The notes: generated by a model from the sequence alone, not told the origin. Positions 6,861 to 38,642 are shown, counted from the stretch's first letter. The stretch: DNA of 41,288 bases from a virus (IMGVR_UViG_3300035670_012629:1-41288), one strand, 5' to 3'. Program-made: numbers and translations.

Positions 6861-7309
6861 TGGCAAACATTTGTAGAACAGAGGTTTATATCCATTCTAA
6901 TATGTCTACCATTGACTGGTTTGAGAAAATGGTAAAAACATTTACAGTAGAGGATTATATTGGTCAATTTGGTAATCTTCAAGCCGAAAGTATGATTGAT
7001 AAAATCGGTTCTAAATGGCTTTTAAAGTATGACTGGTATCGTGAAGATGACCATTGCTATTTTATTTCATTTGAATCAGCCTGGTACCCTCCTGATACCC
7101 TTTTAAAAAATATTTACTCTCAGGTTGCTGAGAATGACCCAGGTGCTTACCTTAAAGGTCGCTATTGGGATGAGAACTTTTCACCAATTGGTATCTTTGA
7201 AGTTAATTCAACCGGTTACCACACAGCTGAAACTGATGTTAATGTTGATATGGATAATGAAGATTGGTGGAATGATGTAGAAGAAGCATTTGATGGTTTA
7301 GAACTTTAA
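6860..7309 (+). CDS. YubB/Api92-like ferredoxin-fold protein
   Basis: This 149-residue acidic protein begins MANICRTEVYIH and has the pattern W-L-x-K-Y-D-W followed by FISFESAWYPPDTLL. These are features of the ferredoxin-like domain of plasmid and phage proteins called YubB, DUF1281 or Api92-like, in which a W..KWD strand is followed by a TaWsPP motif. The function of the family is not established. It shares one base with the DpdA-like gene and is followed by a 50-nt gap before queC. The C-terminus is strongly acidic (MDNEDWWNDVEEAFDG). Confidence 0.5.
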   Translation: MANICRTEVYIHSNMSTIDWFEKMVKTFTVEDYIGQFGNLQAESMIDKIGSKWLLKYDWYREDDHCYFISFESAWYPPDTLLKNIYSQVAENDPGAYLKGRYWDENFSPIGIFEVNSTGYHTAETDVNVDMDNEDWWNDVEEAFDGLEL

Positions 7310-7310
7310 T

Positions 7311-7328
7311 AGCGTTTGCCTATACGCT
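7311..7328. repeat. Short inverted repeat in the gap before queC
   Basis: AGCGT (7311-7315) and ACGCT (7324-7328) form a 5-bp stem with an 8-nt loop, starting 2 nt after the upstream stop. There is no T-run, so a terminator is unlikely. It could be a weak RNA stem or an operator half-site pair; chance is also possible. Confidence 0.22.
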
Positions 7329-7359
7329 TATAATACCTGGCATATTAAATATATAATAA

Positions 7360-8232
7360 ATGCAATTAGAATTAGATTTTAACCAAGGAAAACACGTAGT
7401 AGTATCACTCTCAGGTGGTATGGATAGTAGTACTTTACTTTTAAGAGCCCTTAAAGAATATAATGGTAATGTTACTGCTCTCAGCTTTAATTATGGGCAA
7501 AAACATAGTGTTGAATTAGAAAGAGCTCAACAACTTGTTGATTACTTATGGTCAAAAGATTATAAAATTAAATACCGAGTTATTAAACTTGATGGTTTAG
7601 TTGATTTGCTCAATTCAGCTCTAGTCAATGGGGGTGAAGATGTTCCTGAAGGACACTATGAGCAGGATAATATGAAAGCAACAGTCGTACCTAACCGAAA
7701 CAAAATCTTTAGTTCAATTACTCAAGCCGTTGCACTTTCAGTAGCTACAACTTATAATGAAAGAACCGATATTGCTTTAGGTATTCACGCTGGTGATCAC
7801 GCTATCTATCCAGATTGTCGTCAAGAATGGCGCGATGCTGATTATGAAGCATTTGTTGCGGGTAATTGGGACGCTGAATTAGTAAATCATTGGACTCCAT
7901 ATCTTCATACTGATAAGTTTGGAATTTTACAAGATGGTGAAGTGCTTTGTGATGAATTAGGTTTAGAATTTAATGAAGTTTATTCTCGAACTAATACTTC
8001 ATATAAACCTATCCAACACTTAGTTGAAGAACACTTCACCAAAAGAGGATTCCCAGCACATCAATATGAATGGTTTAGTGATTTTAAATCAGCTTCATCA
8101 GTAGAGCGTATTGAAGCTTTTATTAAGTTAGGTCGTCCTGATCCTGTAAGTTATGCTGATGAAAATGGACCTGTTACTTGGGAAGTTGCAAAAACTCACG
8201 TAGAACAAATTTTAGCCAATTATAATAAATAA
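7360..8232 (+). CDS. queC: QueC-like 7-cyano-7-deazaguanine synthase lacking the zinc cysteines
   Basis: QueC converts 7-carboxy-7-deazaguanine (CDG) through the amide (ADG) to preQ0 using ATP and ammonia. This 290-residue protein has the N-type ATP pyrophosphatase loop (LSGGMDSS, 17-24), LSFNYGQKH at 41-49, the VPNRN motif (110-114) and GIHAGDHAIYPDCR at 141-154, all typical of QueC. The normal C-terminal zinc site (TCY...CGxCxxC) is replaced: the positions corresponding to the four cysteines are S214, D241, S244 and S247, while the flanking residues (T..Y, VER.EAF) still align. It is longer than bacterial QueC (about 220-230 residues), with an insertion around 155-190. It may be structurally adapted without zinc or make a different end product. 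Confidence 0.88.
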   Translation: MQLELDFNQGKHVVVSLSGGMDSSTLLLRALKEYNGNVTALSFNYGQKHSVELERAQQLVDYLWSKDYKIKYRVIKLDGLVDLLNSALVNGGEDVPEGHYEQDNMKATVVPNRNKIFSSITQAVALSVATTYNERTDIALGIHAGDHAIYPDCRQEWRDADYEAFVAGNWDAELVNHWTPYLHTDKFGILQDGEVLCDELGLEFNEVYSRTNTSYKPIQHLVEEHFTKRGFPAHQYEWFSDFKSASSVERIEAFIKLGRPDPVSYADENGPVTWEVAKTHVEQILANYNK

Positions 8233-12222: not shown

Positions 12223-12927
12223 ATGGATAATATTGAAAACAAGCGTCGTAAAAAACACGACAATATTGAGTGTGTGCCGGTTGGAATGGCAAATGGTGTA
12301 GCTGGAAATTTTCCACTAACCCAAGAACAAAAACAAGAAATGGTAGAGGAAGCAGCCGAAGCATTCGGTAAGTTTCTTGATGCCCTAAAATGCGATTGGA
12401 GAAATGACCCAAATTCAATGGAAACCCCGCGGCGAGTTGCTAAGGCATATGTTTATGACCTTTGGAAAGGCCGCTATGAAAATTTTACAGAAATTACTTC
12501 TTTTCCCTCTGATGGTTATGATGGTATTATTATTGAGCGGAACATTCCTATTACTAGTATGTGTTCTCATCATCACCAAACTATTCGGGGGGTCGTCCAT
12601 ATTGGATACGTGGCTGGACAAGATGGACGCGTTATAGGTCTATCAAAGCTTAATCGAATTGTAGAGCACTTTGCTCGTAGAGGTGCTATTCAAGAACAAT
12701 TAACAGCTGCTATTCATCAAGCAGTAGATAAAGTTACTGAAGGTAATGCTGGTGTTATTGTAACAGTAGTAGCAACTCACAATTGTGTTTCTTGCCGTGG
12801 GATTAAACACCAAGGGGCAGCAATGGTAACTACTAAAGCTTCTGGAGTGTTTATGGATAACAATAATCAAGCACGTAAAGAATTCTTTGATTCACTTAAA
12901 ATTAATAATGGTAATGTCTCAGTATAA
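12223..12927 (+). CDS. folE: GTP cyclohydrolase I
   Basis: FolE converts GTP to 7,8-dihydroneopterin triphosphate, the entry step to 7-deazaguanines. In this 234-residue enzyme zinc ligands are expected at C114 and H117 (CSHHH) and C188 (HNCVSCRG), and RVIGLSKLNRIVEHFARR (136-153) plus the QEQLT segment are the catalytic and oligomer contacts. METPRRVAKAYV is the conserved N-terminal helix motif. An extra Cys (C191) sits beside the zinc site. It appears to have its own promoter and overlaps the MazG-like gene. It is separated from queCDE by about 2.5 kb but completes the pathway. Confidence 0.93.
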   Translation: MDNIENKRRKKHDNIECVPVGMANGVAGNFPLTQEQKQEMVEEAAEAFGKFLDALKCDWRNDPNSMETPRRVAKAYVYDLWKGRYENFTEITSFPSDGYDGIIIERNIPITSMCSHHHQTIRGVVHIGYVAGQDGRVIGLSKLNRIVEHFARRGAIQEQLTAAIHQAVDKVTEGNAGVIVTVVATHNCVSCRGIKHQGAAMVTTKASGVFMDNNNQARKEFFDSLKINNGNVSV

Positions 12928-13534
12928 AGAAGAATTAATAGTTATCCTTTTAAATAGTTTAGGTACTCTCCATTCATTTAGAGATCGAGATGAAATGTCA
13001 AGATACCCTGATGTTGAATGGGCTGAATACGCTGCTGATAAAATTTTAAAACTCTTTGATGGCAGATACGTGCCATTCGTAAGTGAAGTCGAAGAATTTA
13101 ACTCCTTAATGAACAAACCAAACAACTATGAACCCACGATTCCAGAAAATAGAGGTGAATGGGAGTTTGTATACAACTTTGTTCTTGAGGAACTTGAAGA
13201 GTATAAACAAGCTTGCGAAAAAGGAGACATCGTTGAAGTTTTGGACGCGTTGTGTGACATTGCTTACGTATCCCTTGGGAACGGCGCTATGCTTCACGGC
13301 CTTAAGGATAAAATTTGGCCCGCTTATATGGAAGTACAGGCATCGAATCTATCCAAAGCTTGCTCAACTGAAGGAGAGGCACAAAAAACTGTTGAATTAC
13401 GCTCCCAAGAACAAGGCGAAGCTTGTCATTATGAACAGGTTGGTAACAAGTATATTGTATATCGTAGCCGAGATCGAAAAGTAATGAAAAACATTAACTA
13501 TTTCCGACCAGATTTGACGCAATTCTTTAAGTAA
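12914..13534 (+). CDS. MazG/HisE-like nucleotide pyrophosphohydrolase
   Basis: About 206 residues. The central part (about 78-150) has the all-alpha NTP-PPase metal motif EELEE (92-96) followed by EVLDALCD (108-115), the EExxE...ExxD arrangement of MazG, dUTPase-2 and HisE relatives. GNGAMLHGL and AYMEVQASNLSKA match the phosphoribosyl-ATP pyrophosphohydrolase-like phage group. It probably hydrolyses a (d)NTP to the monophosphate and PPi. In a phage with modified bases it may remove an unwanted normal nucleotide, or adjust host signalling nucleotides (inference). The ATG at 12914 was chosen over an upstream TTG. Confidence 0.78.
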   Translation: MSQYKEELIVILLNSLGTLHSFRDRDEMSRYPDVEWAEYAADKILKLFDGRYVPFVSEVEEFNSLMNKPNNYEPTIPENRGEWEFVYNFVLEELEEYKQACEKGDIVEVLDALCDIAYVSLGNGAMLHGLKDKIWPAYMEVQASNLSKACSTEGEAQKTVELRSQEQGEACHYEQVGNKYIVYRSRDRKVMKNINYFRPDLTQFFK

Positions 13535-15249
13535 TGAGTTATAAATCTTGTTTTGCCACTAAGTTAGGCAATAACAAATACAAAATACATTTGTGGGATG
13601 ATAATGGGTATCAAAATTTTGAATGGTACTATCCTGCCTATATTGAATGTGACGAGCAAGAAGAAGAATTTGTAGGTTTAAGAAAAGAATCTCTTAAAAA
13701 ATCTTTTAAGTGGGATAAGGACGACAAAAAAGTTCACTTTCACGATATGAAACCTTACCAAAGGTTTTTAGTTGAAAAATACGGAACTAATGACGAACCT
13801 TCTACTACTCACCGCGAAGTATTTTTTGATATTGAGATTGAAATGGGAGGAGCACTTACGGAAGATTACATCCGTAGTGCTCCCAAACCTGTTACTTCAA
13901 TTGCTTGGTGGTACAAACAAGAAGATAAGTGGGTAATTCTTATTTTAGATGAAAAGGGGCAATTAAATCATACAAAAAATAAAAATAAAGAAATTGTACC
14001 TTTCGATAGTGAAGAAAAGCTACTTCAAGCTTTTATAATAAGAATGCGCGAAATTAATCCGGATATACTCATTGGGTATAACAGCGATTATTTCGACATA
14101 CCCTACCTCTACTACCGCATCTCTAACGTATTTGGAGAAGAAATTGCCCGTTTATTGTCTCCCATTGAGACTGTTTACGACCAAAGCCAATGGAATAAAG
14201 ACCAATTCCTTGTTATTGCCGGTATCGAGAGTTTAGATTATATGAAGCTACATAAAAAGTTTAGCTTTAGAGATGAGCCTTCATTTAAATTAGATGCATT
14301 AGGTAAAAAATACGTTGGTTTAGAAAAAATTGAATACGAAGGTAGTCTTGATCGTTTATTTGAAGAAGATATCTACAAATTCATCCAATACAACTTTCGA
14401 GACGTTGAGATCTTAAAGGCATTAGACGAAAAATTCCAATATATTTCGTTGACTAAAAACCTAGCCCACAAAGGTAAGATCAATTATAGTGACGTCTATA
14501 AAAACAGTATGATCCACGACGGCGCAATTAGTGCTTACCTATTGTCTCAAGGTATAATACCACCTAGCCGCGATATAAACCCAATTACCAAGCAGAATTA
14601 TGCGGGAGGTTACTTGTTTTGCCCGCAAGCAGGTTTATATAAGTATATGTTTGACGAAGACTTAACTTCGTTGTACCCGTCTATTATAATGTCTTTAAAC
14701 ATTGGTAAAGAAACTTTAGTAGGGCGTATAATTATACCAAATGAGAAGGTTGTAGTGGAAGGTAAAGAAATATTTAACTGCCGTTATGGTTTGAATGATC
14801 TGAAGAAAATGGATCCCGAAAAAGAGGTGATTTTGGAAAACAGCCAAAGAAAAAGAACCAAAATTAAAATTGAGGGACTTTTAACTCTTATTTCAGATAT
14901 GAATTTATCAATTTCTGCAAACGGCGTTATGTATCGAACGGATATGGATTCAGTGTTGAAAACAATCCTTGCTAAATGGTTTGAAGAACGAGTTTTATAT
15001 AAGAATAAGATGAAGGAAAGTTATAAAGCGGGCGATAAGGAAAAAGGTGCTCAATTTAATTTACTACAACATACAATGAAAATCTTGTTGAACTCACTTT
15101 ACGGGGCAACCGCTTTGGGCTCATTTAGATATGGTAACGTTATATTAAGTGAATCAATTACATTATCAGGACAACGAATTATTCAAGAATCAGCTTTATT
15201 CGCTAACACACATATGAATAAAGTTATAAGAGGTGAAATAGTATTATGA
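13534..15249 (+). CDS. 43: T4 gp43-like DNA polymerase, N-terminal part (exonuclease, palm motif A, motif B)
   Basis: This 571-residue protein is the first two-thirds of a family B polymerase. Proofreading motifs are Exo I FFDIEIE (D99, E101), Exo II IGYNSDYFDIPY (180-191, D188) and Exo III YNFRDVEI (D290). Polymerase motif A is DEDLTSLYPS (374-383, catalytic D376). Motif B, KILLNSLYGA, starts near 516 with the nucleotide-binding Lys and Tyr. The protein then stops 46 residues after that decapeptide, before motif C. The missing YVDTDS motif and thumb are encoded by the separate gene at 16077. The stop overlaps the next gene as ATGA. No frameshift is obvious; the end is a clean, coupled stop, so a working two-chain polymerase is likely. 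Confidence 0.92.
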   Translation: MSYKSCFATKLGNNKYKIHLWDDNGYQNFEWYYPAYIECDEQEEEFVGLRKESLKKSFKWDKDDKKVHFHDMKPYQRFLVEKYGTNDEPSTTHREVFFDIEIEMGGALTEDYIRSAPKPVTSIAWWYKQEDKWVILILDEKGQLNHTKNKNKEIVPFDSEEKLLQAFIIRMREINPDILIGYNSDYFDIPYLYYRISNVFGEEIARLLSPIETVYDQSQWNKDQFLVIAGIESLDYMKLHKKFSFRDEPSFKLDALGKKYVGLEKIEYEGSLDRLFEEDIYKFIQYNFRDVEILKALDEKFQYISLTKNLAHKGKINYSDVYKNSMIHDGAISAYLLSQGIIPPSRDINPITKQNYAGGYLFCPQAGLYKYMFDEDLTSLYPSIIMSLNIGKETLVGRIIIPNEKVVVEGKEIFNCRYGLNDLKKMDPEKEVILENSQRKRTKIKIEGLLTLISDMNLSISANGVMYRTDMDSVLKTILAKWFEERVLYKNKMKESYKAGDKEKGAQFNLLQHTMKILLNSLYGATALGSFRYGNVILSESITLSGQRIIQESALFANTHMNKVIRGEIVL

Positions 15250-15491
15250 TAACAAAACAAGCAATACGGAATGGCATATCTGTTTCTTTAAATGGAGAAA
15301 AATTAACTAAAGACCAAATAATTGAAATAGGAGAAAATTGGTCTGAGAAAGAAGAAAATTTGTTTAGAAAGATGCTTAAACAAGGAGGCACTTTCAAAAT
15401 AGGAGGTAATAAATGGTGTATTATTTCATTTGAAAAAATTTATAACTCTAAAGGAGAAATAGAAGCTGAAATCGAATCAGAAGAAGAATGA
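15246..15491 (+). CDS. Small hypothetical protein inside the split polymerase locus
   Basis: An 81-residue protein with a helix-rich first half (EIGENWSEKEENLFRKMLKQG) and two strands (TFKIGGN, KWCIISFEKIY), ending in an acidic tail (EAEIESEEE). No homolog is recognised, and there is no homing-endonuclease or intein signature. It is ATGA-coupled to the polymerase N-terminal gene on the left and to the Smr gene on the right. Confidence 0.5.
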   Translation: MITKQAIRNGISVSLNGEKLTKDQIIEIGENWSEKEENLFRKMLKQGGTFKIGGNKWCIISFEKIYNSKGEIEAEIESEEE

Positions 15492-15712
15492 AAACACAAC
15501 GAACTTTAGATCTACACGGAGTTAAACACGAAGATGTAGAACATAAATTAAATGAATTTTTCTTTTGGGATCATACTGAATTCGAAAACACTAAAATCAT
15601 TACCGGCAAATCCGATAAAATGCGCGAAATTGTTGTTAAATGGCTTGATGTTTTAGACTATAAGTATTATATTCCAAATAATAATGCCGGTGAGATACAA
15701 GTTATAGGATGA
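15488..15712 (+). CDS. Stand-alone Smr-domain protein
   Basis: A 74-residue protein that is essentially one Smr domain, the C-terminal domain of MutS2: LDLHG at 7-11, helix EDVEHKLNEFF, the strand-loop IITGKSDKMR (37-46) in place of HGKG.G.LR, and a last strand NAGEIQVIG. Smr domains bind or nick branched DNA or RNA, the LDLHG Asp/His being implicated in activity. The usual His of HGKG is a Thr, so nuclease activity is uncertain. It lies between the polymerase halves, ATGA-coupled on both sides. Confidence 0.7.
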   Translation: MKTQRTLDLHGVKHEDVEHKLNEFFFWDHTEFENTKIITGKSDKMREIVVKWLDVLDYKYYIPNNNAGEIQVIG

Positions 15713-16080
15713 AAAAACCAGACAATGTTGCAGATAACCCAAGTTTACTACCTTACTCAAGTAATGTGGGGGCACCTGTTATCGAAGTTGAAAACATTGA
15801 TTTGTGGAAACAGCGGGGTGCTCATAAAGTTAATAAACAATTAGAAACAAAATTCTTAGAGTTAAAAGTTGAGTATCAAAAATTAGTAGAAGAATATAAA
15901 TGGAACGATTTAGTTTACAATGCACATTTTAGTTTCGAACCCGTAATTGGTGAAATTTATCATTTATACCCAAGAAAAAATGGAGAAATTTTTCTTTCCC
16001 TAATTTCTCCAAATGAATGGAATAAAAAAAGCCTTGGTTCATTTAGGTTAAATAGTGAGCAAAAGTGGATTAAATTATGA
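15709..16080 (+). CDS. DUF2452-family protein
   Basis: This 123-residue protein starts KKPDNVADNPSLLPY and contains SNVGAPVI, HKVNKQLETKFLELK, WNDLVYNA and FEPVIGEIYHLY, ending with the block SLISPNEWNKKSLGS. This is the pattern of DUF2452, a family I know mainly from Bacteroidota chromosomes, of unknown function. Its presence supports a Bacteroidota host and suggests acquisition from one. The stop overlaps the second polymerase gene as ATGA. Confidence 0.72.
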   Translation: MKKPDNVADNPSLLPYSSNVGAPVIEVENIDLWKQRGAHKVNKQLETKFLELKVEYQKLVEEYKWNDLVYNAHFSFEPVIGEIYHLYPRKNGEIFLSLISPNEWNKKSLGSFRLNSEQKWIKL

Positions 16081-17003
16081 TTAATTTAGAAAGTACACCT
16101 TGGTTTATTTGCAACGAGGATGATATCAATTTCTGTTCTTATGTTGATACAGACTCTAACTATTATAACGCTGAACCTTTACTTAGACATCTCTACCCTA
16201 ATTTTGGTACTATGTCAGAAGAAGAAAAAGACGAAGCACTTGAAAAAATTGCCCTAAAATACCAAGATCTGATTACGGGTTACTACCAACAAATGGCTGA
16301 AGAGGTGTTTAATATTAAAGAACACCGATTTGAAATGAAAACTGAAGCAGTTATTCGTTCAGCTTATTTTAGAGCTACTCGTAGATATGCCCAATGGATT
16401 ACTAAAAAAGAGGGTGTTACTAAAGAAGAATTAGATATTAAGGGATTAGAATTTATGAAAGCTAATTTCCCTCCAGTATTTGGTAAGTTCTTTAACTCAA
16501 TTCTAGAAAAAGTACTAAAAGGATCTGAACAAAAAGAAATTGATGATTTACTTTTAGAATTTAAAGCATACATTCTGTCTAAAGATTTAAATATTACTAT
16601 TTTAGGTAACCCAACCTCAGTAAAAACTTTAGACAAATATATTGATAGTAAAGCAAAAAAAGGTGAAATGTTTTCCACTATAAAACAAGGTGCTCCTGCC
16701 CCAGTTAAAGCAGCTATCAAGTATAATGATTTACTTACATTTTGGAAGTTAGACAAACAACACTCTCGAATAGTTCAGGGTGATAAAGTAAAATGGATTT
16801 ATCTAAAAGATAATCCTTATAAGATTGAGGCACTAGCATTCCTTGATTTCGATATGCCTGAAAAAATTCAGGAATTGTTAAACACATTTGCAGATAGAAA
16901 CAAATCGTTTGAATCTATATTGCAAAGTAAATTAGAAGGTTTTTATCACGATTTAGGTTGGAGTTTCAATTTAAATCCATATAAGTCAATGTTTTTTATT
17001 TAA
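16077..17003 (+). CDS. 43: T4 gp43-like DNA polymerase, C-terminal part (motif C, thumb)
   Basis: A 308-residue protein beginning 21 residues before polymerase motif C (YVDTDS at 22-27, catalytic D24 and D26). FRATRRYAQW (about 93) corresponds to the KKRY DNA-contact motif, and the rest forms the thumb and C-terminal region. The final residues (NPYKSMFFI) resemble a hydrophobic clamp-binding tail like the C-terminal peptide of RB69 gp43. Motifs A and B are encoded 0.8 kb upstream, so this protein needs the first part for activity. Known T4 relatives with 43A/43B genes show that such two-chain polymerases can function. Confidence 0.92.
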   Translation: MINLESTPWFICNEDDINFCSYVDTDSNYYNAEPLLRHLYPNFGTMSEEEKDEALEKIALKYQDLITGYYQQMAEEVFNIKEHRFEMKTEAVIRSAYFRATRRYAQWITKKEGVTKEELDIKGLEFMKANFPPVFGKFFNSILEKVLKGSEQKEIDDLLLEFKAYILSKDLNITILGNPTSVKTLDKYIDSKAKKGEMFSTIKQGAPAPVKAAIKYNDLLTFWKLDKQHSRIVQGDKVKWIYLKDNPYKIEALAFLDFDMPEKIQELLNTFADRNKSFESILQSKLEGFYHDLGWSFNLNPYKSMFFI

Positions 17004-17007
17004 TATT

Positions 17008-18678
17008 ATGGCAAAAGTTTACGGAGTAGGTTTTCCCTTTCATAATCACTCTTCGGTTTTTATCGAAAATGGGAAAATTGTATATGCAGTTGAAGACGAT
17101 AAAATGATGAGAACTAAAACCCCTTGGATTTGGGGTTGGACTTCAGGTACATCTTTAAGAGCGATTGAAGATGCTACAGGTGTTTTACTTGAAGATGCAG
17201 ATTATATTGGTATTGGTGATTTTAATTTAGTTCATTCCTATTACAATAGCTTTAATGTTTCTGCTTACAATGAGCAATACAAAAAAGATTTAGTTGATCA
17301 ATTGTTAAAAATCAAAAAATCAAACGCTAAAGTTTTATACTACCCACACCACGATTGCCACGCGGCATCCGCTTACTACTTATCAGGATTTGATAAAGCA
17401 TTGGTAGTAACAATGGATGGTGGTAATGGTGAACACGAATTAGGTACTGTACAATTAGGTAATGGATTAGAAATGCATCGAGTGCATACTTTAGATATGC
17501 ATACTAATTCTAATTCTTTAGCTACAATTTGGTATTACTCTTGTCCGAAATTTGGATTTGTTGGTAATAAAGACGAAGGCAAAATTATGGGGATGGCGGG
17601 TCACGGCCAGTATAATGAAAGGTTAATTAAGGGTTTTAGATCATTAGTTAGTTATAATAAAGATCACTTGTCGTTTTCACCAAGTACCCACGACTATCTT
17701 TATGAATGGTTTTTTGACCAAATTGAAAGAGAAGGTTGGTTTAAAACTGATCAAGGTAAAGCAGATGTTGCTTATGCTATGCAATACCATTTAGAAGAAA
17801 CAATGGTAGAATACCTTACAGATATTGCTCTTCGCTACCCAGATTACAGAAATATTTGTTTTGCTGGCGGTTTATTTGCTAATGTTAAGATGAACCAAGT
17901 AATTAACGAGATGGGATACTTTGACAATATCTTTGTTACCCCAGGAATGGGTGATGAAAGTATTTCAATGGGGGCTGCTATTTTGGCTTCCTTAGAAGCG
18001 GGGGATTGGAAACCTTACAAATTAGAAAATGCATTCTTAGGTTTTTCTTATAACCAAGAACAAATAGAACAAGAAGCCGCTAATTATCCTGATTTAGTTC
18101 GAACGGATTTTGATTATAAATTAATTGCCGAACTATTAAATGATGGTAAAATTTTAGGATTATACCAAGGCCGATTTGAATGGGGACCTAGAGCTTTAGG
18201 TTCTAGATCAATTATGGTTAGAGCAACAGACCCCGGAACTCACGAAGTGTTGAATGAAAGATTAAAAAGGAATGAAATTATGCCTTTTGCTCCATTTGTA
18301 ATGGGAGAAGAAGCACATAATATATTCCATATTGATGGTTCTGAACATACTGCTGAGTTTATGACTCTCTGTTATACTTGTAAAGACGAGTGGATCGAAA
18401 AAATTCCAGCAGTAATTCATAGAGTAGACAATACAGGTAGACCACAAATAGTTAGAAAACATAGTAATCCTGTTTTCTGGAATATTTTAAATGAATATAA
18501 CAAAATTTCAGGAATCCCAGTTTTATTAAATACATCATTTAATGCTCACGGTGAACCTATTAATGTTTATCCTGATCAAGTTTTTAAACATTTAAATGAT
18601 GGAGTTGTAGATTATTTGGTTACAGAATACGGTATATATTATAAAAAAGTAAAAAATGAAGACGAAAGTAACAGTTGA
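17008..18678 (+). CDS. O-carbamoyltransferase (NodU/CmcH/TobZ family)
   Basis: This 556-residue enzyme uses carbamoyl phosphate and ATP to carbamoylate a hydroxyl group. The N-terminal Kae1-like domain carries HHDCHAASA (114-122) with the metal His residues and MDGGNGE (136-142). FAGGLFANVKMNQ follows at about 290. The C-terminal domain has QGRFEWGPRALGSRS (near 390) and LNTSFNAHGEP. Acceptors in this family include Nod factors, antibiotics and, in some phages, 5-hydroxymethylcytosine in DNA. Here it sits directly between the DNA polymerase and sliding clamp genes, which suggests DNA or nucleotide modification, but the sugar island downstream makes a glycan acceptor equally possible. Confidence 0.88.
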   Translation: MAKVYGVGFPFHNHSSVFIENGKIVYAVEDDKMMRTKTPWIWGWTSGTSLRAIEDATGVLLEDADYIGIGDFNLVHSYYNSFNVSAYNEQYKKDLVDQLLKIKKSNAKVLYYPHHDCHAASAYYLSGFDKALVVTMDGGNGEHELGTVQLGNGLEMHRVHTLDMHTNSNSLATIWYYSCPKFGFVGNKDEGKIMGMAGHGQYNERLIKGFRSLVSYNKDHLSFSPSTHDYLYEWFFDQIEREGWFKTDQGKADVAYAMQYHLEETMVEYLTDIALRYPDYRNICFAGGLFANVKMNQVINEMGYFDNIFVTPGMGDESISMGAAILASLEAGDWKPYKLENAFLGFSYNQEQIEQEAANYPDLVRTDFDYKLIAELLNDGKILGLYQGRFEWGPRALGSRSIMVRATDPGTHEVLNERLKRNEIMPFAPFVMGEEAHNIFHIDGSEHTAEFMTLCYTCKDEWIEKIPAVIHRVDNTGRPQIVRKHSNPVFWNILNEYNKISGIPVLLNTSFNAHGEPINVYPDQVFKHLNDGVVDYLVTEYGIYYKKVKNEDESNS

Positions 18679-19360
18679 TTTTAATGGTTCAAAAAGTGGA
18701 ATTCTTGTATCCTGTAAGTGTGATCCCGAAAAAGATATTTTTATCACAGTACTAGCTAAAAGAAAAAATCTATGGGGGTACTCCACATCTTTTAGATTAA
18801 CACATAATCAAACCTTCAATACAGGGCCAATGTGGTATCGACCTACTAAATTCGTTGTATATGAATATATTGATGGGCAAGCTGTTGTTATAGATGAAAT
18901 TGAAAACCAAAGATACGGTAAACCAGCAAATTTTTATCTCTTAGGTGGTGAAGATATTGCAACCCATTTTTCGTGGTGTACAGTTATTAAAGAATACTCA
19001 GAAAAATTTAATTGTAAAGTTAATATTGAATCTGAATATGCAGACTCACTATCAGGTAGTTTTCCTGAAATGAATTTTTATACTATTATACCTGATGTAG
19101 CTTTGAGATCAAACTATATGGGTTTTAATATTTGTAGAGATTTGAATCAACCCAATAGAACAGATATCCAAACCCATAAAGCAGACATTCAGTATTATAA
19201 TTGGTGGCATTCAAAACCACCTCACAATATGACAGATAAAGATATTGCTAGAGATATTATCTTTGGTCCTGATCTTACAGATTCATTTTTTGATTTAAAA
19301 AGGTCACCTGAAGAAACTATTCAAAGCCTATTTATTATTGACGAAAAACTTCAAAAATGA
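18656..19360 (+). CDS. Truncated glycosyltransferase-like protein, beta-domain plus partial GT-B
   Basis: A 234-residue protein. The first 80 residues form a beta-sandwich-like stretch (VTVDFNGSKSGILVSC, SFRLTHNQTF, KFVVYEYIDGQAVV). The next part (NFYLLGGEDIATHFSW, EKFNCKVNIESEYADSL, SFPEMNFY) resembles the first half of autotransporter-heptosyltransferase-like enzymes, which start with the same kind of beta-domain. The second, nucleotide-sugar-binding half of such enzymes is missing. It may therefore be a remnant or a binding protein. It overlaps the carbamoyltransferase by 23 nt and is ATGA-coupled to the clamp gene. Confidence 0.4.
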   Translation: MKTKVTVDFNGSKSGILVSCKCDPEKDIFITVLAKRKNLWGYSTSFRLTHNQTFNTGPMWYRPTKFVVYEYIDGQAVVIDEIENQRYGKPANFYLLGGEDIATHFSWCTVIKEYSEKFNCKVNIESEYADSLSGSFPEMNFYTIIPDVALRSNYMGFNICRDLNQPNRTDIQTHKADIQYYNWWHSKPPHNMTDKDIARDIIFGPDLTDSFFDLKRSPEETIQSLFIIDEKLQK

Positions 19361-20103
19361 TTCAAAAAAGCGATTTACAATCGATTATATCTAAATATTT
19401 TCTTAATGGTTTAGTTGAATCTGTTAAGTGGATAACAACTGATAATGTTTTATCTATTGATTTCAATACACCTTCAGAGGACGCTATTGGTAGTGTTATT
19501 TATAAGGGATTTCCTCTAGAAGATAGTGAAATTGGTATTTTAGATACAAGTAAGTTAAACAAATTATTAGGTATTACAACAGGTTTAATTGATATTAAAC
19601 TACAGAAAACTAATAAAACTTATACTAAAATTACTTTAGCAGATACTAATTACACATTAGAATTTCCTTTAGGTGATATTTTATTGAATCAATTTAAGGA
19701 ACCTAAAAAATTAAAAGGTGAATTTAGCTATCAACTTCAATGTGAGTTGTCTAAAGAAATTATTGATAATATTATCAAAGCCAAATCCGCTCTTGAAAGT
19801 ACTAATGTAATATTTAACATTGGGCAGAATTTTGATGGTCATCAGGTTTTTGAATTAATATTTGGTGAAAGCTCTACACACTCTAATAGAATTTCTTATA
19901 TTATTCCTGAAGTAGACTTAGAAGGAGTTATGGGTGATTTTTCTTTACCATTTGATAGTGAAGTTTTACGTTCTATTTTAAGTAATAATAAAGATTTTGA
20001 CACAGCTAACCTTTATCTTAATACTCAAGGATTGTTAAAACTACATTTTGAAAATGAAAAATGTGAATCAACTTATTACATTTTAAGAAAAGCTCCTCAA
20101 TAA
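19357..20103 (+). CDS. 45: Sliding clamp (T4 gp45-like)
   Basis: This 248-residue DNA polymerase processivity clamp would form a trimeric ring. The N-terminal region with DNVLSIDFNTPSEDAIGSV, the segment KGFPLEDSEIGILDTSKLNKLL (two strands and helix) and the later repeat of the same fold (ESTNVIFNIG, FDSEVLRSIL) follow the two-domain gp45 pattern. It tethers the two-chain polymerase and, by analogy with T4, may also activate late transcription. A hairpin and a new promoter follow, so it ends a transcription unit. Confidence 0.85.
   Translation: MIQKSDLQSIISKYFLNGLVESVKWITTDNVLSIDFNTPSEDAIGSVIYKGFPLEDSEIGILDTSKLNKLLGITTGLIDIKLQKTNKTYTKITLADTNYTLEFPLGDILLNQFKEPKKLKGEFSYQLQCELSKEIIDNIIKAKSALESTNVIFNIGQNFDGHQVFELIFGESSTHSNRISYIIPEVDLEGVMGDFSLPFDSEVLRSILSNNKDFDTANLYLNTQGLLKLHFENEKCESTYYILRKAPQ

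Positions 20104-20461: not shown

Positions 20462-20465
<4 letters not shown>
20178..20465 (+). CDS. Small conserved-looking phage protein, unknown
   Basis: This 95-residue protein opens with short strands (GIRYIKDPKLEPYFIQLDDYCYAV), then GFYSNFDAALRAIAKNQV and a C-terminal helix (VNEFIIEYKSVLTKLE). The layout Y-Y/F-I..D.YCY.V followed by FYSN...AL..I is one I associate with small hypothetical phage proteins, but I cannot name a family with confidence. It is the first gene after the candidate promoter at 20153 and is ATGA-coupled to groES. Confidence 0.5.
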
Positions 20466-22400
<1,935 letters not shown>

Positions 22401-22401
<1 letters not shown>

Positions 22402-35928: not shown

Positions 35929-37362
35929 ATGAAAGAAATGTTTCGATATCTTCCTCAAGCAGAGAGGAAGAAAATACTCCTTATTACAGACGATATAAGA
36001 TTCCCTTCAGGTGTAGGTGGTGTAGGTAAAGAAATTTGTATTCATACAGCTCACCATTTTAATTGGGTTAATTTAGGTGGGGCTGTTAATCACCCCGAAA
36101 ATGGTAAGCGTTTTGATTTAAGTCCTGAAACTAACAAATTAACAGGTTTAGACGATACTTATGTACACATTATTGCTAATACCGGATATGGCAATCCAGA
36201 TCAAATTAGAAATATTTTAAAACAAGAACAATTTGATGCTATTTTCATTATTACAGACCCACGATATTTTATGTGGTTGTTCCAAATTGAAAATGAAATT
36301 AGAGTAAAAATTCCTATTGTTTACTTAAACATTTGGGATGATTATCCTACACCTTTTTACAATAAAGCATTTTACGAATCTTGTGATGCCCTATTAGCAA
36401 TCTCAAAACAAACTAAATTAATTAATGAATTAACCTTAGGAGATTCAGTAAAAAATAAAGTTACAAAATATATTCCTCACGGAATTAATACCAATATTTT
36501 TTTCCCAATTGATTCAAATGCTCAAGAATTAGTTGATTTGAAAAAATCTATTTTTAGAGAAAAAGAATATGATTTTATTTTATTCTTTAATTCTAGAAAC
36601 ATTAGAAGAAAATCAATTCCCGATACTTTACTAGCTTGGAGAATATTTTTAGATAGTCTTCCTAAAGATAAAGCTGAGAGATGTGCTTTCTTGTTACACA
36701 CAGAGTTAGTTACAGAAGCCGGTACTGATTTAGTAGCTGTTAAAGAATTGTTGTTTGGTGATGAATATAATAATGTATATTTTAGCCACGAGAGAATAGA
36801 TCACGGCACATTAAATAAAATGTACAACATTGCAGATGCTCAGATCCTATTATCATCTGCTGAAGGTTGGGGATTATCACTTACTGAAGCTATGTTAACA
36901 GGTACGCCGTTTATTGCTAATGTAACAGGTGGTATGCAAGATCAAATGCGTTTTGAAAAAGATAATGAATGGTTTACACCAACACCAGAATTACCTTCAA
37001 ACCATACAGGTACTCTTAAGAATTGTGGAGAATGGGCTCTTCCAGTCTATCCCTCAAATAGATCAATTGTAGGTAGTCCTGTAACTCCTTACATTTGGGA
37101 TGATAGATGTAAAGCTGAAGATGCTGCTGAAGCTATTAAACAAATGTATGAGTTCGGTCACGAAGAAAGAAAACGAAGAGGTAATTTAGGTCGTGAATGG
37201 GCTTTAAGTCAAGAAGCAGGATTTACTGCTGAAACAATGGGTAATAGAGTAATTGAATCTTTAGATGAACTCTTCGACAATTGGCAACCTAGAAAGAAAT
37301 ACGAAGTATATAAAGTAGAAAAAAGAAAACCCAATTTTGTAAACCACAGTCTTGTATATTAA
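35929..37362 (+). CDS. GT4-like glycosyltransferase
   Basis: A 477-residue GT-B enzyme. N-terminal KKILLITDDIRFPSGVGGVGKE is the acceptor-domain glycine loop; YIPHGINTNIF (about 180-190) links the domains. The C-terminal half has FNSRNIRRKSI, LLSSAEGWGLSLTEAMLTGTPFIA with the E-x7-E-like donor motif (EGWGLSLTEA). It transfers a sugar from an NDP donor to a glycan. It is separated from the RHH gene by 7 nt. Confidence 0.85.
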   Translation: MKEMFRYLPQAERKKILLITDDIRFPSGVGGVGKEICIHTAHHFNWVNLGGAVNHPENGKRFDLSPETNKLTGLDDTYVHIIANTGYGNPDQIRNILKQEQFDAIFIITDPRYFMWLFQIENEIRVKIPIVYLNIWDDYPTPFYNKAFYESCDALLAISKQTKLINELTLGDSVKNKVTKYIPHGINTNIFFPIDSNAQELVDLKKSIFREKEYDFILFFNSRNIRRKSIPDTLLAWRIFLDSLPKDKAERCAFLLHTELVTEAGTDLVAVKELLFGDEYNNVYFSHERIDHGTLNKMYNIADAQILLSSAEGWGLSLTEAMLTGTPFIANVTGGMQDQMRFEKDNEWFTPTPELPSNHTGTLKNCGEWALPVYPSNRSIVGSPVTPYIWDDRCKAEDAAEAIKQMYEFGHEERKRRGNLGREWALSQEAGFTAETMGNRVIESLDELFDNWQPRKKYEVYKVEKRKPNFVNHSLVY

Positions 37363-38642
37363 TGAAACCATCTTTTATAATTAGTTGCCCCGTAGATACT
37401 TTTTCAGGTTATGGAGCTCGTTCAAGAGATTTAGTAAAAGCTATTATTGAATCTAATAAGTATGATGTAAAAATTTTACCACAAAGGTGGGGAAATACTC
37501 CTTGGAATTTTATTGAAGAACATCCTGAATGGCAATTCCTAAGACAACACATCTTACCCAGCCCTAATCTTGATAAACAACCCGACATTTGGATGCAAAT
37601 TACAGTGCCAAATGAATTTCAACCAATTGGTAAATACAATATTGGTGTAACTGCTGGTATGGAAACCAATTTAGTATCGGGACCTTGGATTGAAGGTTGT
37701 AATAGAATGAATTTAGTTATTACAAGTTCAAAGTTTGCTAAAGAGGTATTCCAAAATTCAAGTTACGAAGTTAAAAATCAACAAGGTCAGTTGATAAAAA
37801 CTTTACATCTTGAAACACCTATTGAAGTACTATTTGAAGGTGTTAATACTGAAATTTATAAAGCAACAAATGAAATCTTTGACCTATCTCAGGTTAAAGA
37901 ACAATTTGCTTACCTATTTGTAGGTCACTGGTTGCAAGGTGACTTTGGCCACGACAGAAAAAATGTGGCGTTTATGATTAAAGCGTTTTTAGAAACATTT
38001 AAGAATAAAACTAACAAACCAGCTCTTATTTTGAAAACCAGTATCACAGGTGCCTCAATGATGGATAGAGAAGAAATTCAAAAAAGAATTAGTTCTATTA
38101 TGGATAGTGTTAATTCAAAGAATTTACCTTCAATTTATCTTGTTCACGGAGAACTTAGTGATGTAGAAATGAATAAATTATATAATCATCCAAAAGTAAA
38201 AGCTATGGTTAGCTTAACTAAAGGTGAGGGTTTTGGTCGTCCATTACTTGAATTTAGTTTAGTTAAAAAACCAATTATTACTACTAATTGGTCAGCTCAT
38301 ATTGAATTCCTTAATAGTGAATTTTGCACTTTACTCCCAGGAACACTTGAACCAGTACATAAAACAGCAGTAGTAGAAAATATGATTCTTCCTGAAGCCA
38401 AATGGTTTCAAGTTGAACCGATTGCAGTTGGTACGGCTTTAAAAGATGTGTTTGAAAATTATAAGAAATATACTGATGGAGCTAAACGTCAAGCTTATAA
38501 AAGTAAAACTGAATTTAGCTGGTTAAAAATGGCTGAAAAATTAGACGCTATTTTAACAACTAATATTCCTGAGTTTCCTAAAGAAATAGCTCTAAAATTA
38601 CCTGAACTAAAATTACCTAAATTAGAAAAAGTAAATGGATAA
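37362..38642 (+). CDS. GT4-like glycosyltransferase, second
   Basis: A 426-residue GT-B enzyme. The start ISCPVDTFSGYGARSRDLVKAI is the acceptor loop; FEGVNTEIYK is the interdomain motif; FAYLFVGHWLQGDFG and VSLTKGEGFGRPLLEFS (E-x7-E type) form the donor side. It has the same overall plan as the previous gene but is not a close copy. It shares one base with it (TAATG) and overlaps the zinc-ribbon gene by 8 nt. Confidence 0.83.
   Translation: MKPSFIISCPVDTFSGYGARSRDLVKAIIESNKYDVKILPQRWGNTPWNFIEEHPEWQFLRQHILPSPNLDKQPDIWMQITVPNEFQPIGKYNIGVTAGMETNLVSGPWIEGCNRMNLVITSSKFAKEVFQNSSYEVKNQQGQLIKTLHLETPIEVLFEGVNTEIYKATNEIFDLSQVKEQFAYLFVGHWLQGDFGHDRKNVAFMIKAFLETFKNKTNKPALILKTSITGASMMDREEIQKRISSIMDSVNSKNLPSIYLVHGELSDVEMNKLYNHPKVKAMVSLTKGEGFGRPLLEFSLVKKPIITTNWSAHIEFLNSEFCTLLPGTLEPVHKTAVVENMILPEAKWFQVEPIAVGTALKDVFENYKKYTDGAKRQAYKSKTEFSWLKMAEKLDAILTTNIPEFPKEIALKLPELKLPKLEKVNG

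Follow-up and report, generated by a model that had tools for sequence, protein, structure and literature searches.

The window analysed here, the whole 41,288-nucleotide stretch of viral DNA IMGVR_UViG_3300035670_012629:1-41288, carries a T4-like DNA polymerase in two genes. The first encodes an N subunit and the second a C subunit, and the gap between them holds exactly three open reading frames (ORFs) of 81, 74 and 123 amino acids (aa), here called g1, the Smr-like passenger and the DUF2452 passenger. All four junctions of this five-gene run are 4-base ATGA overlaps of stop and start codons (Table 1). An earlier note on this DNA had described the gap as an unknown 81-residue gene, an Smr domain and a DUF2452 protein. 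The first and last of these descriptions stood; the second was weakened to Smr-like, because the Pfam score of 21.3 bits falls below the cut-off of 25.7 bits.

Table 1. Position and identification of the split polymerase genes, the gap genes and their neighbours in the window
Feature	Position	Strand	Basis and remarks
Polymerase N subunit	13534..15249	+	571 aa; N-terminal domain, 3'-5' exonuclease, fingers, palm motifs A (DLTSLYP) and B (NSLYGA)
ATGA overlap, N stop and g1 start	15246..15249	+	sequence
g1, near-constant gap gene of no known family	15246..15491	+	in 148/205 split loci
Smr-like exchangeable passenger	15488..15712	+	Pfam Smr E 3e-4, below cut-off; in 36/205 gaps
DUF2452 protein, exchangeable passenger	15709..16080	+	Pfam E 1.1e-12, above cut-off; in 10/205 gaps
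ATGA overlap, DUF2452 stop and C start	16077..16080	+	sequence
Polymerase C subunit	16077..17003	+	308 aa; palm motif C (YVDTDS), RRYAQW motif, thumb
MazG-like pyrophosphohydrolase, adjoining the N gene upstream; conserved neighbour	12887..13534	+	Pfam PRA-PH E 3e-8; the listed TTG start is the ORF limit
Carbamoyltransferase, directly 3' of the C gene; variable neighbour	17008..18678	+	Pfam Carbam_trans E 5e-50
Putative sliding clamp	19357..20103	+	position and size only; synteny with L292 6463-7218 and L293 6904-7626

Both products match the DNA polymerase profile PHROG 262, which has 856 positions, the N part at positions 13-567 (E 5e-109) and the C part at positions 565-842 (E 2e-43). Because the two pieces abut on this profile, nothing is missing from the polymerase. 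The N part also matched the Pfam exonuclease and DNA_pol_B families, and an AlphaFold2 model of the C part retrieved RB69 gp43 structures with a Foldseek probability of 1.00 (E 3e-7). In the alignment to RB69 gp43 proposed by the earlier note, residues 189-609 pair with N residues 155-565, and the cut falls at about RB69 610-615, just ahead of motif C, within the loop that runs from the post-motif-B helix to the strand leading into the palm's motif C hairpin. The two genes are thus confirmed as adjoining pieces, without overlap, of a single T4 gp43-like family B polymerase (PolB). Exonuclease, palm/fingers and thumb are collinear, as in the T4 gp43-type family, and the single polypeptide is replaced by two genes, as it is in 205/205 distinct split relatives. 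The profile and RB69 alignments agree with the earlier assignment of Exo I-III and motifs A and B to the first protein and of motif C and the thumb to the second, and support a break that passes through the palm after motif B and before motif C; the coordinates given for both genes were exact.

With the C part as query, scans of IMG/VR returned 258, 472 and at least 597 relatives, and removal of duplicates left 205 distinct split members, all from marine viral contigs. Wherever both halves of the split group are present, each is a gene of its own and the break is at the same residue, and because 205 distinct relatives have this break, it is neither chance nor an assembly error. The C gene starts with ATG in all 158 tabulated members (158/158). 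In an alignment of 66 C parts, the start Met, Pro8, Asp16, Asn18 and DTDS are invariant, and Glu5, Thr7, Trp9 and Ile11 occur in at least 90%. Exo I, Exo III, motifs A, B and C and RRYAQ are kept in 172/172 members, and Exo II, scored by a strict pattern, in 149/172. Ratios of nonsynonymous to synonymous substitution rates (dN/dS) of 0.03-0.19 for both halves in eight pairs show that both are under purifying selection, and N and C distances correlate (r 0.895). At one locus (L017:3353-5040) the N gene lies in two frames, covering residues 1-310 and 316-571, probably through a sequencing or assembly frameshift.

This conservation bears on whether the two genes might be decaying remnants in a genome replicated by another polymerase. 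We found no point supporting such decay, and the low dN/dS and intact motifs speak against it. Contigs of the clade spanning 55-170 kb (170, 164, 161, 156 and 130 kb as well as smaller ones) contain no family B polymerase beyond the two halves, and no family A polymerase was found in the 11 large contigs searched; those of 130-170 kb thus hold no alternative replicase of either family, and we give the remnant explanation virtually no credence. Within the split clade there is also no contiguous polymerase gene, although one is present in a sister clade described below. The outcomes that would have overturned the earlier note therefore did not occur, its view of the break as stabilised was borne out by the 205 relatives, their motifs and their dN/dS, and the search for the same junction in related genomes that it suggested was positive.

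Five of six large clade contigs encode a Gp23 capsid protein and a T4-type portal (the sixth is a 101-kb fragment), which identifies the clade as T4-like myoviruses; neither gene lies in the 41-kb window. Contigs of some relatives were placed in metagenome-assembled genomes (MAGs) of marine Flavobacteriaceae/Flavobacteriales, and some relatives in a Pelagibacter bin. Shine-Dalgarno motifs precede 4/50 genes of the window, against a background of 12%. The MAG placement and the absence of Shine-Dalgarno motifs suggest flavobacterial hosts.

Across the clade, the gap is empty in 48/205 distinct members and comprises 208-4214 bases in the other 157/205. Because 48 split members have none of the three passengers found in the window, these are not required for the split. 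The gap ORFs form 32 clusters, a few of them on the minus strand and probably spurious. Smr, DUF2452 and about 25 further families have been gained and lost, many of them sugar-nucleotide and surface genes. They comprise cupin/mannose-6-phosphate isomerase, cytidylyltransferase, DAHP/KDO8P-type synthase with HAD and transaldolase, dTDP-sugar epimerase, DegT aminotransferase, formyltransferase, methyltransferases, acetyltransferase, NAD epimerase, PLP enzyme and SET families, alongside several small families lacking any Pfam match. The DAHP/KDO8P-type synthase, HAD-like and transaldolase genes form a three-gene cassette in the gaps of L039, L040, L047, L030, L032 and L033. As a control, we counted inserts of at least 300 bases at three junctions. 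The N-C junction carried them in 97/175 cases, the C-clamp junction in 38/175 and the mazG-N junction in 12/110, so that, by counts uncorrected for relatedness, inserts are commonest at the N-C junction. The earlier note had read the gap as a carrier of host-type genes. Cargo genes are indeed there, but in place of a fixed set we found a hotspot with many alternative contents, empty in 48/205. Its remark that no endonuclease was visible extends to the clade, as none of the 32 gap ORF families is a recognisable endonuclease, of the homing kind or any other.

The contents and dimensions of the gap also bear on two ways in which the halves might still yield one chain. In most empty-gap members the N stop overlaps the C start by ATGA, with the genes in different frames (for example L255, AAATTATGAAG), an arrangement from which ribosomal frameshifting could unite both halves in one product. 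Such frameshifting cannot, however, operate in 157 members, where 208-4214 bases and other genes separate the halves; the C start Met is invariant, and no slippery heptamer was seen by eye at these junctions, which makes this explanation very improbable. Alternatively, the halves could be spliced through a split intein or by trans-splicing, as happens with Nanoarchaeum PolB and with fractured phage genes; inteins preferentially occupy the PolB motif C region, and true cases occur in other phages encountered here (L121, LR756508). However, the stretches at the broken ends, about 20 aa behind GQRIIQ in N and about 22 aa ahead of DTDS in C, are much too small to be intein halves, the junction contains no intein blocks and no Rfam intron match, and 48 members have no room for an insert. 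We therefore regard splicing as extremely improbable.

One gap gene stands apart from the exchangeable cargo. In the loci examined, g1 was found in the gap only, and 15 other matches proved to be contig-edge fragments beside the C gene or to belong to a frameshifted locus. Both deep split branches have it, branch B (L306-L322) among them, and its distances track those of the polymerase (Mantel r 0.765, 0/500 permutations), which indicates an old inhabitant of the gap that was repeatedly lost. Searches of Pfam, PHROG, phage proteins and the PDB gave no match for g1, and a structure search with its model (pLDDT 76) returned nothing significant in the PDB or BFVD. The helix and hairpin pattern of this model hints at a winged helix, which we do not claim. 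An apparent g1-N fusion in L026 was rejected, as the BLAST alignment had run past a stop.

A scan of genome contigs identified two single-gene polymerases, L292 (888 aa) and L293 (882 aa), with 49-57% identity. Scans starting from these added ten intact sequences (L297-L305, L377), bringing the intact group to 12. L293 has the same neighbours, with folE and mazG ahead of the polymerase and a putative clamp gene behind it; in L292, folE precedes it and a putative clamp gene and GroES/GroEL follow. The counterpart of the window's putative clamp gene directly follows the polymerase in the intact sisters. The spacing from GQRIIQ to DTDS is 45 aa in the intact sisters and about 29 aa in some 65 more distant intact relatives and in Microcystis phage Mel-JY01, whereas split members have an N tail of mostly 20-22 aa and a C head of about 27 aa. 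Judged by these spacings, the cut lies, without net loss, inside a loop that in the intact sisters is about 16 residues longer than that of other T4-like polymerases; the loop of this lineage either was already larger beforehand or was left so. N tails of 45-65 aa, not about 20, were seen in L042, L331, L018, L371 and L141, some with similar ends such as NPNIIEQPRPMW or DPKIERNISPRPYGI.

We consider it likely that one ancient fission gave rise to an obligate two-subunit polymerase and that its junction later became a cargo hotspot. This reading starts from the observed break, its conservation, the selection on both halves, the lack of any other polymerase in the contigs examined and the turnover of cargo. 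A single gene would have broken once, in the ancestor of a large marine T4-like phage clade, inside the enlarged loop between the post-motif-B helix and the motif C hairpin. A one-base frameshift creating TTATGA would presumably have sufficed, and most empty-gap members look as if this had occurred. The N subunit would supply the exonuclease, the fingers and the motif A catalytic aspartate, and the C subunit the thumb and the second catalytic aspartate, that of motif C. Family B polymerases take their two metal-binding aspartates from motifs A and C, and because these lie in N and C, respectively, neither chain alone should catalyse. Both halves would be made from one operon by translation coupled through ATGA stop/start overlaps, and would have to associate non-covalently into a heterodimer with a single active site. 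The junction would then have acted as an insertion point, with g1 arriving early and being mostly retained and other cargo coming and going; total loss of cargo would leave the two halves as separate genes.

Several points weigh against this reading. The association of N and C and the activity of the resulting enzyme are inferred, and some residual joining of the halves in vivo would be compatible with the sequences. AlphaFold2 predicted the C chain alone with a confident thumb but with a palm segment of low confidence (pLDDT below 50 at residues 2-12, 14-31 and 84-124). Such a poor lone palm segment would be expected if the half-sheet of C needed the N chain, but a low-confidence lone-chain model is only weakly suggestive of an obligate partner, as it may have other causes. 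Finally, in a careful tree of 35 rows the intact group falls next to split branch B (96/89), a topology that would require either a re-fusion or two fissions.

Under the first of these, a fission would have been followed by rejoining in the intact group, with the enlarged loop as its scar. Beyond the nested position of the intact group (96/89 and 100/95), this is favoured by the 45-aa loop, which approximates the combined length of N tail and C head (47-49 aa) where outgroups have about 29 aa, and by the split N tail, which is closer to the outgroup segment than is the corresponding segment of the intact group. However, a topology that unites all split members and leaves the intact group outside is not rejected by approximately unbiased (AU) tests (35-row set: p 0.124 for both halves, 0.097 for N and 0.428 for C), the long outgroup branch (1.36) may have misplaced the root, and the intact loci examined show no trace of g1. 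We therefore treat re-fusion as possible but unlikely. Two independent fissions at the same loop, one per deep split branch, would follow from the careful tree if the intact state were ancestral; we consider them quite improbable, because g1, an otherwise unknown gene, and very similar cut flanks are common to both branches. A single split clade, as the one-fission reading predicts, fits a 47-row set, in which forcing the split members into one group increased the likelihood (AU p 0.77). Mel-JY01, L084 and LR756508 were tried as outgroups and rejected as too distant to polarise the split (stem 1.1-1.9). A bolder combination, in which fission and later re-fusion took place within one phage clade and g1 serves the split enzyme specifically, as an accessory subunit or a regulator, is decidedly unlikely in our view; if true, the re-fusion would be a natural two-way experiment on cutting a polymerase through its active site.

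Around the split genes, a MazG-like gene lies 5' of the N gene in most loci whose contig extends that far, and a DUF2452 gene stands 3' of the C gene, not in the gap, in L280, L291 and L078. The putative sliding clamp of the window has no PHROG match. The replication region further includes a GroES/GroEL pair (20462-22401), along with the carbamoyltransferase. Adjacent glycosyltransferases at 35929-38642, both PHROG 2170, fit the abundance of surface-sugar genes in the gaps of relatives.

Split T4-like polymerases have so far been treated as oddities of a few phages and blamed on homing endonucleases or inteins. Here, fission of the palm, with the catalytic aspartates on different chains, appears as the normal condition, long inherited, in a widespread clade of marine phages, and the intact sister group and empty-gap members allow comparison. 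Tests can now address how an essential enzyme tolerates a cut, whether the split arose as one frameshift within a permissive loop, and how a gene break turns into a docking site for cargo. As a practical caution, programs that annotate these phages automatically will list the enzyme as two partial polymerases. A limited literature search found no prior report of the split in this marine clade.

The nearest parallel is gp43A and gp43B of Aeromonas phages 25 and 44RR, likewise a T4-type PolB in two adjacent genes with the catalytic carboxylates on different chains. In phage 25, 43A and 43B co-purify with polymerase activity (PMC2988022), and because these halves, cut elsewhere, are active together, non-covalent assembly is a reasonable expectation here as well. 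The cuts differ, however. Aeromonas phage 25 43A has 498 aa and motif B lies in 43B, so that the break is in the fingers between motifs A and B, about 100 residues earlier; the present split is therefore independent of it, as the earlier note had supposed. The Aeromonas gap contains a homing endonuclease or untranslated sequence, 43B carries a group I intron and the split is known from a few isolates rather than a deep clade, whereas the present gaps either hold genes that mostly overlap or are empty, with no recognisable endonuclease.

Outside the T4-like phages, PolB3 of the Methanobacteriales is likewise a PolB fixed as two polypeptides across a whole lineage, but an archaeal one; the split B-type polymerase of this order was reportedly described by Kelman in 1999. 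It has been ascribed to faulty intein excision (PMC4104785). PolB of Nanoarchaeum equitans and the fractured phage PolB of MIJ3 and L121 are also encoded in two genes, but there the halves bear intein parts and splicing can join them into a single chain, whereas the present split has no intein; MIJ3 and L121 further differ from the present clade in having an endonuclease gene in the gap. The Nanoarchaeum break is at motif C. So is that of L121 (L121:5001-9084, IMGVR_UViG_3300033146_001328), a true split-intein PolB whose N gene continues past YGDTDS into an intein N part, followed by an endonuclease-like gene at 7142-8110 and a C gene that opens with an intein C part ending ILIHN|SNHM. In a 484-kb uncultured phage (L082, LR756508.1 255000-270000), PolB is likewise broken before motif C into two genes, here separated by about 3 kb. 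A full intein sits at motif B and another at the TD|TDS site, and between the two genes lie related ORFs of unknown function along with a cytidine deaminase-like gene. Used as query in a scan, the LR756508 C part retrieved no relatives. MEP401-type OM43 phages have a split DNA polymerase too, but are related to Zobellviridae, a different phage family. Mel-JY01, the closest isolate relative found, and IMG/VR L391-L456 have a PolB of the same gp43 family, but as a single gene with a loop of about 29 aa and roughly 32-37% identity.

Overall, split family B polymerases were already known from Aeromonas phages, Methanobacteriales, Nanoarchaeum and fractured phage genes. New are a break site unlike that of the Aeromonas phages, fixation throughout a clade of uncultured marine phages with an intact sister group, and a junction that has no recognisable mobile element and serves as a cargo hotspot with a near-constant small gene.

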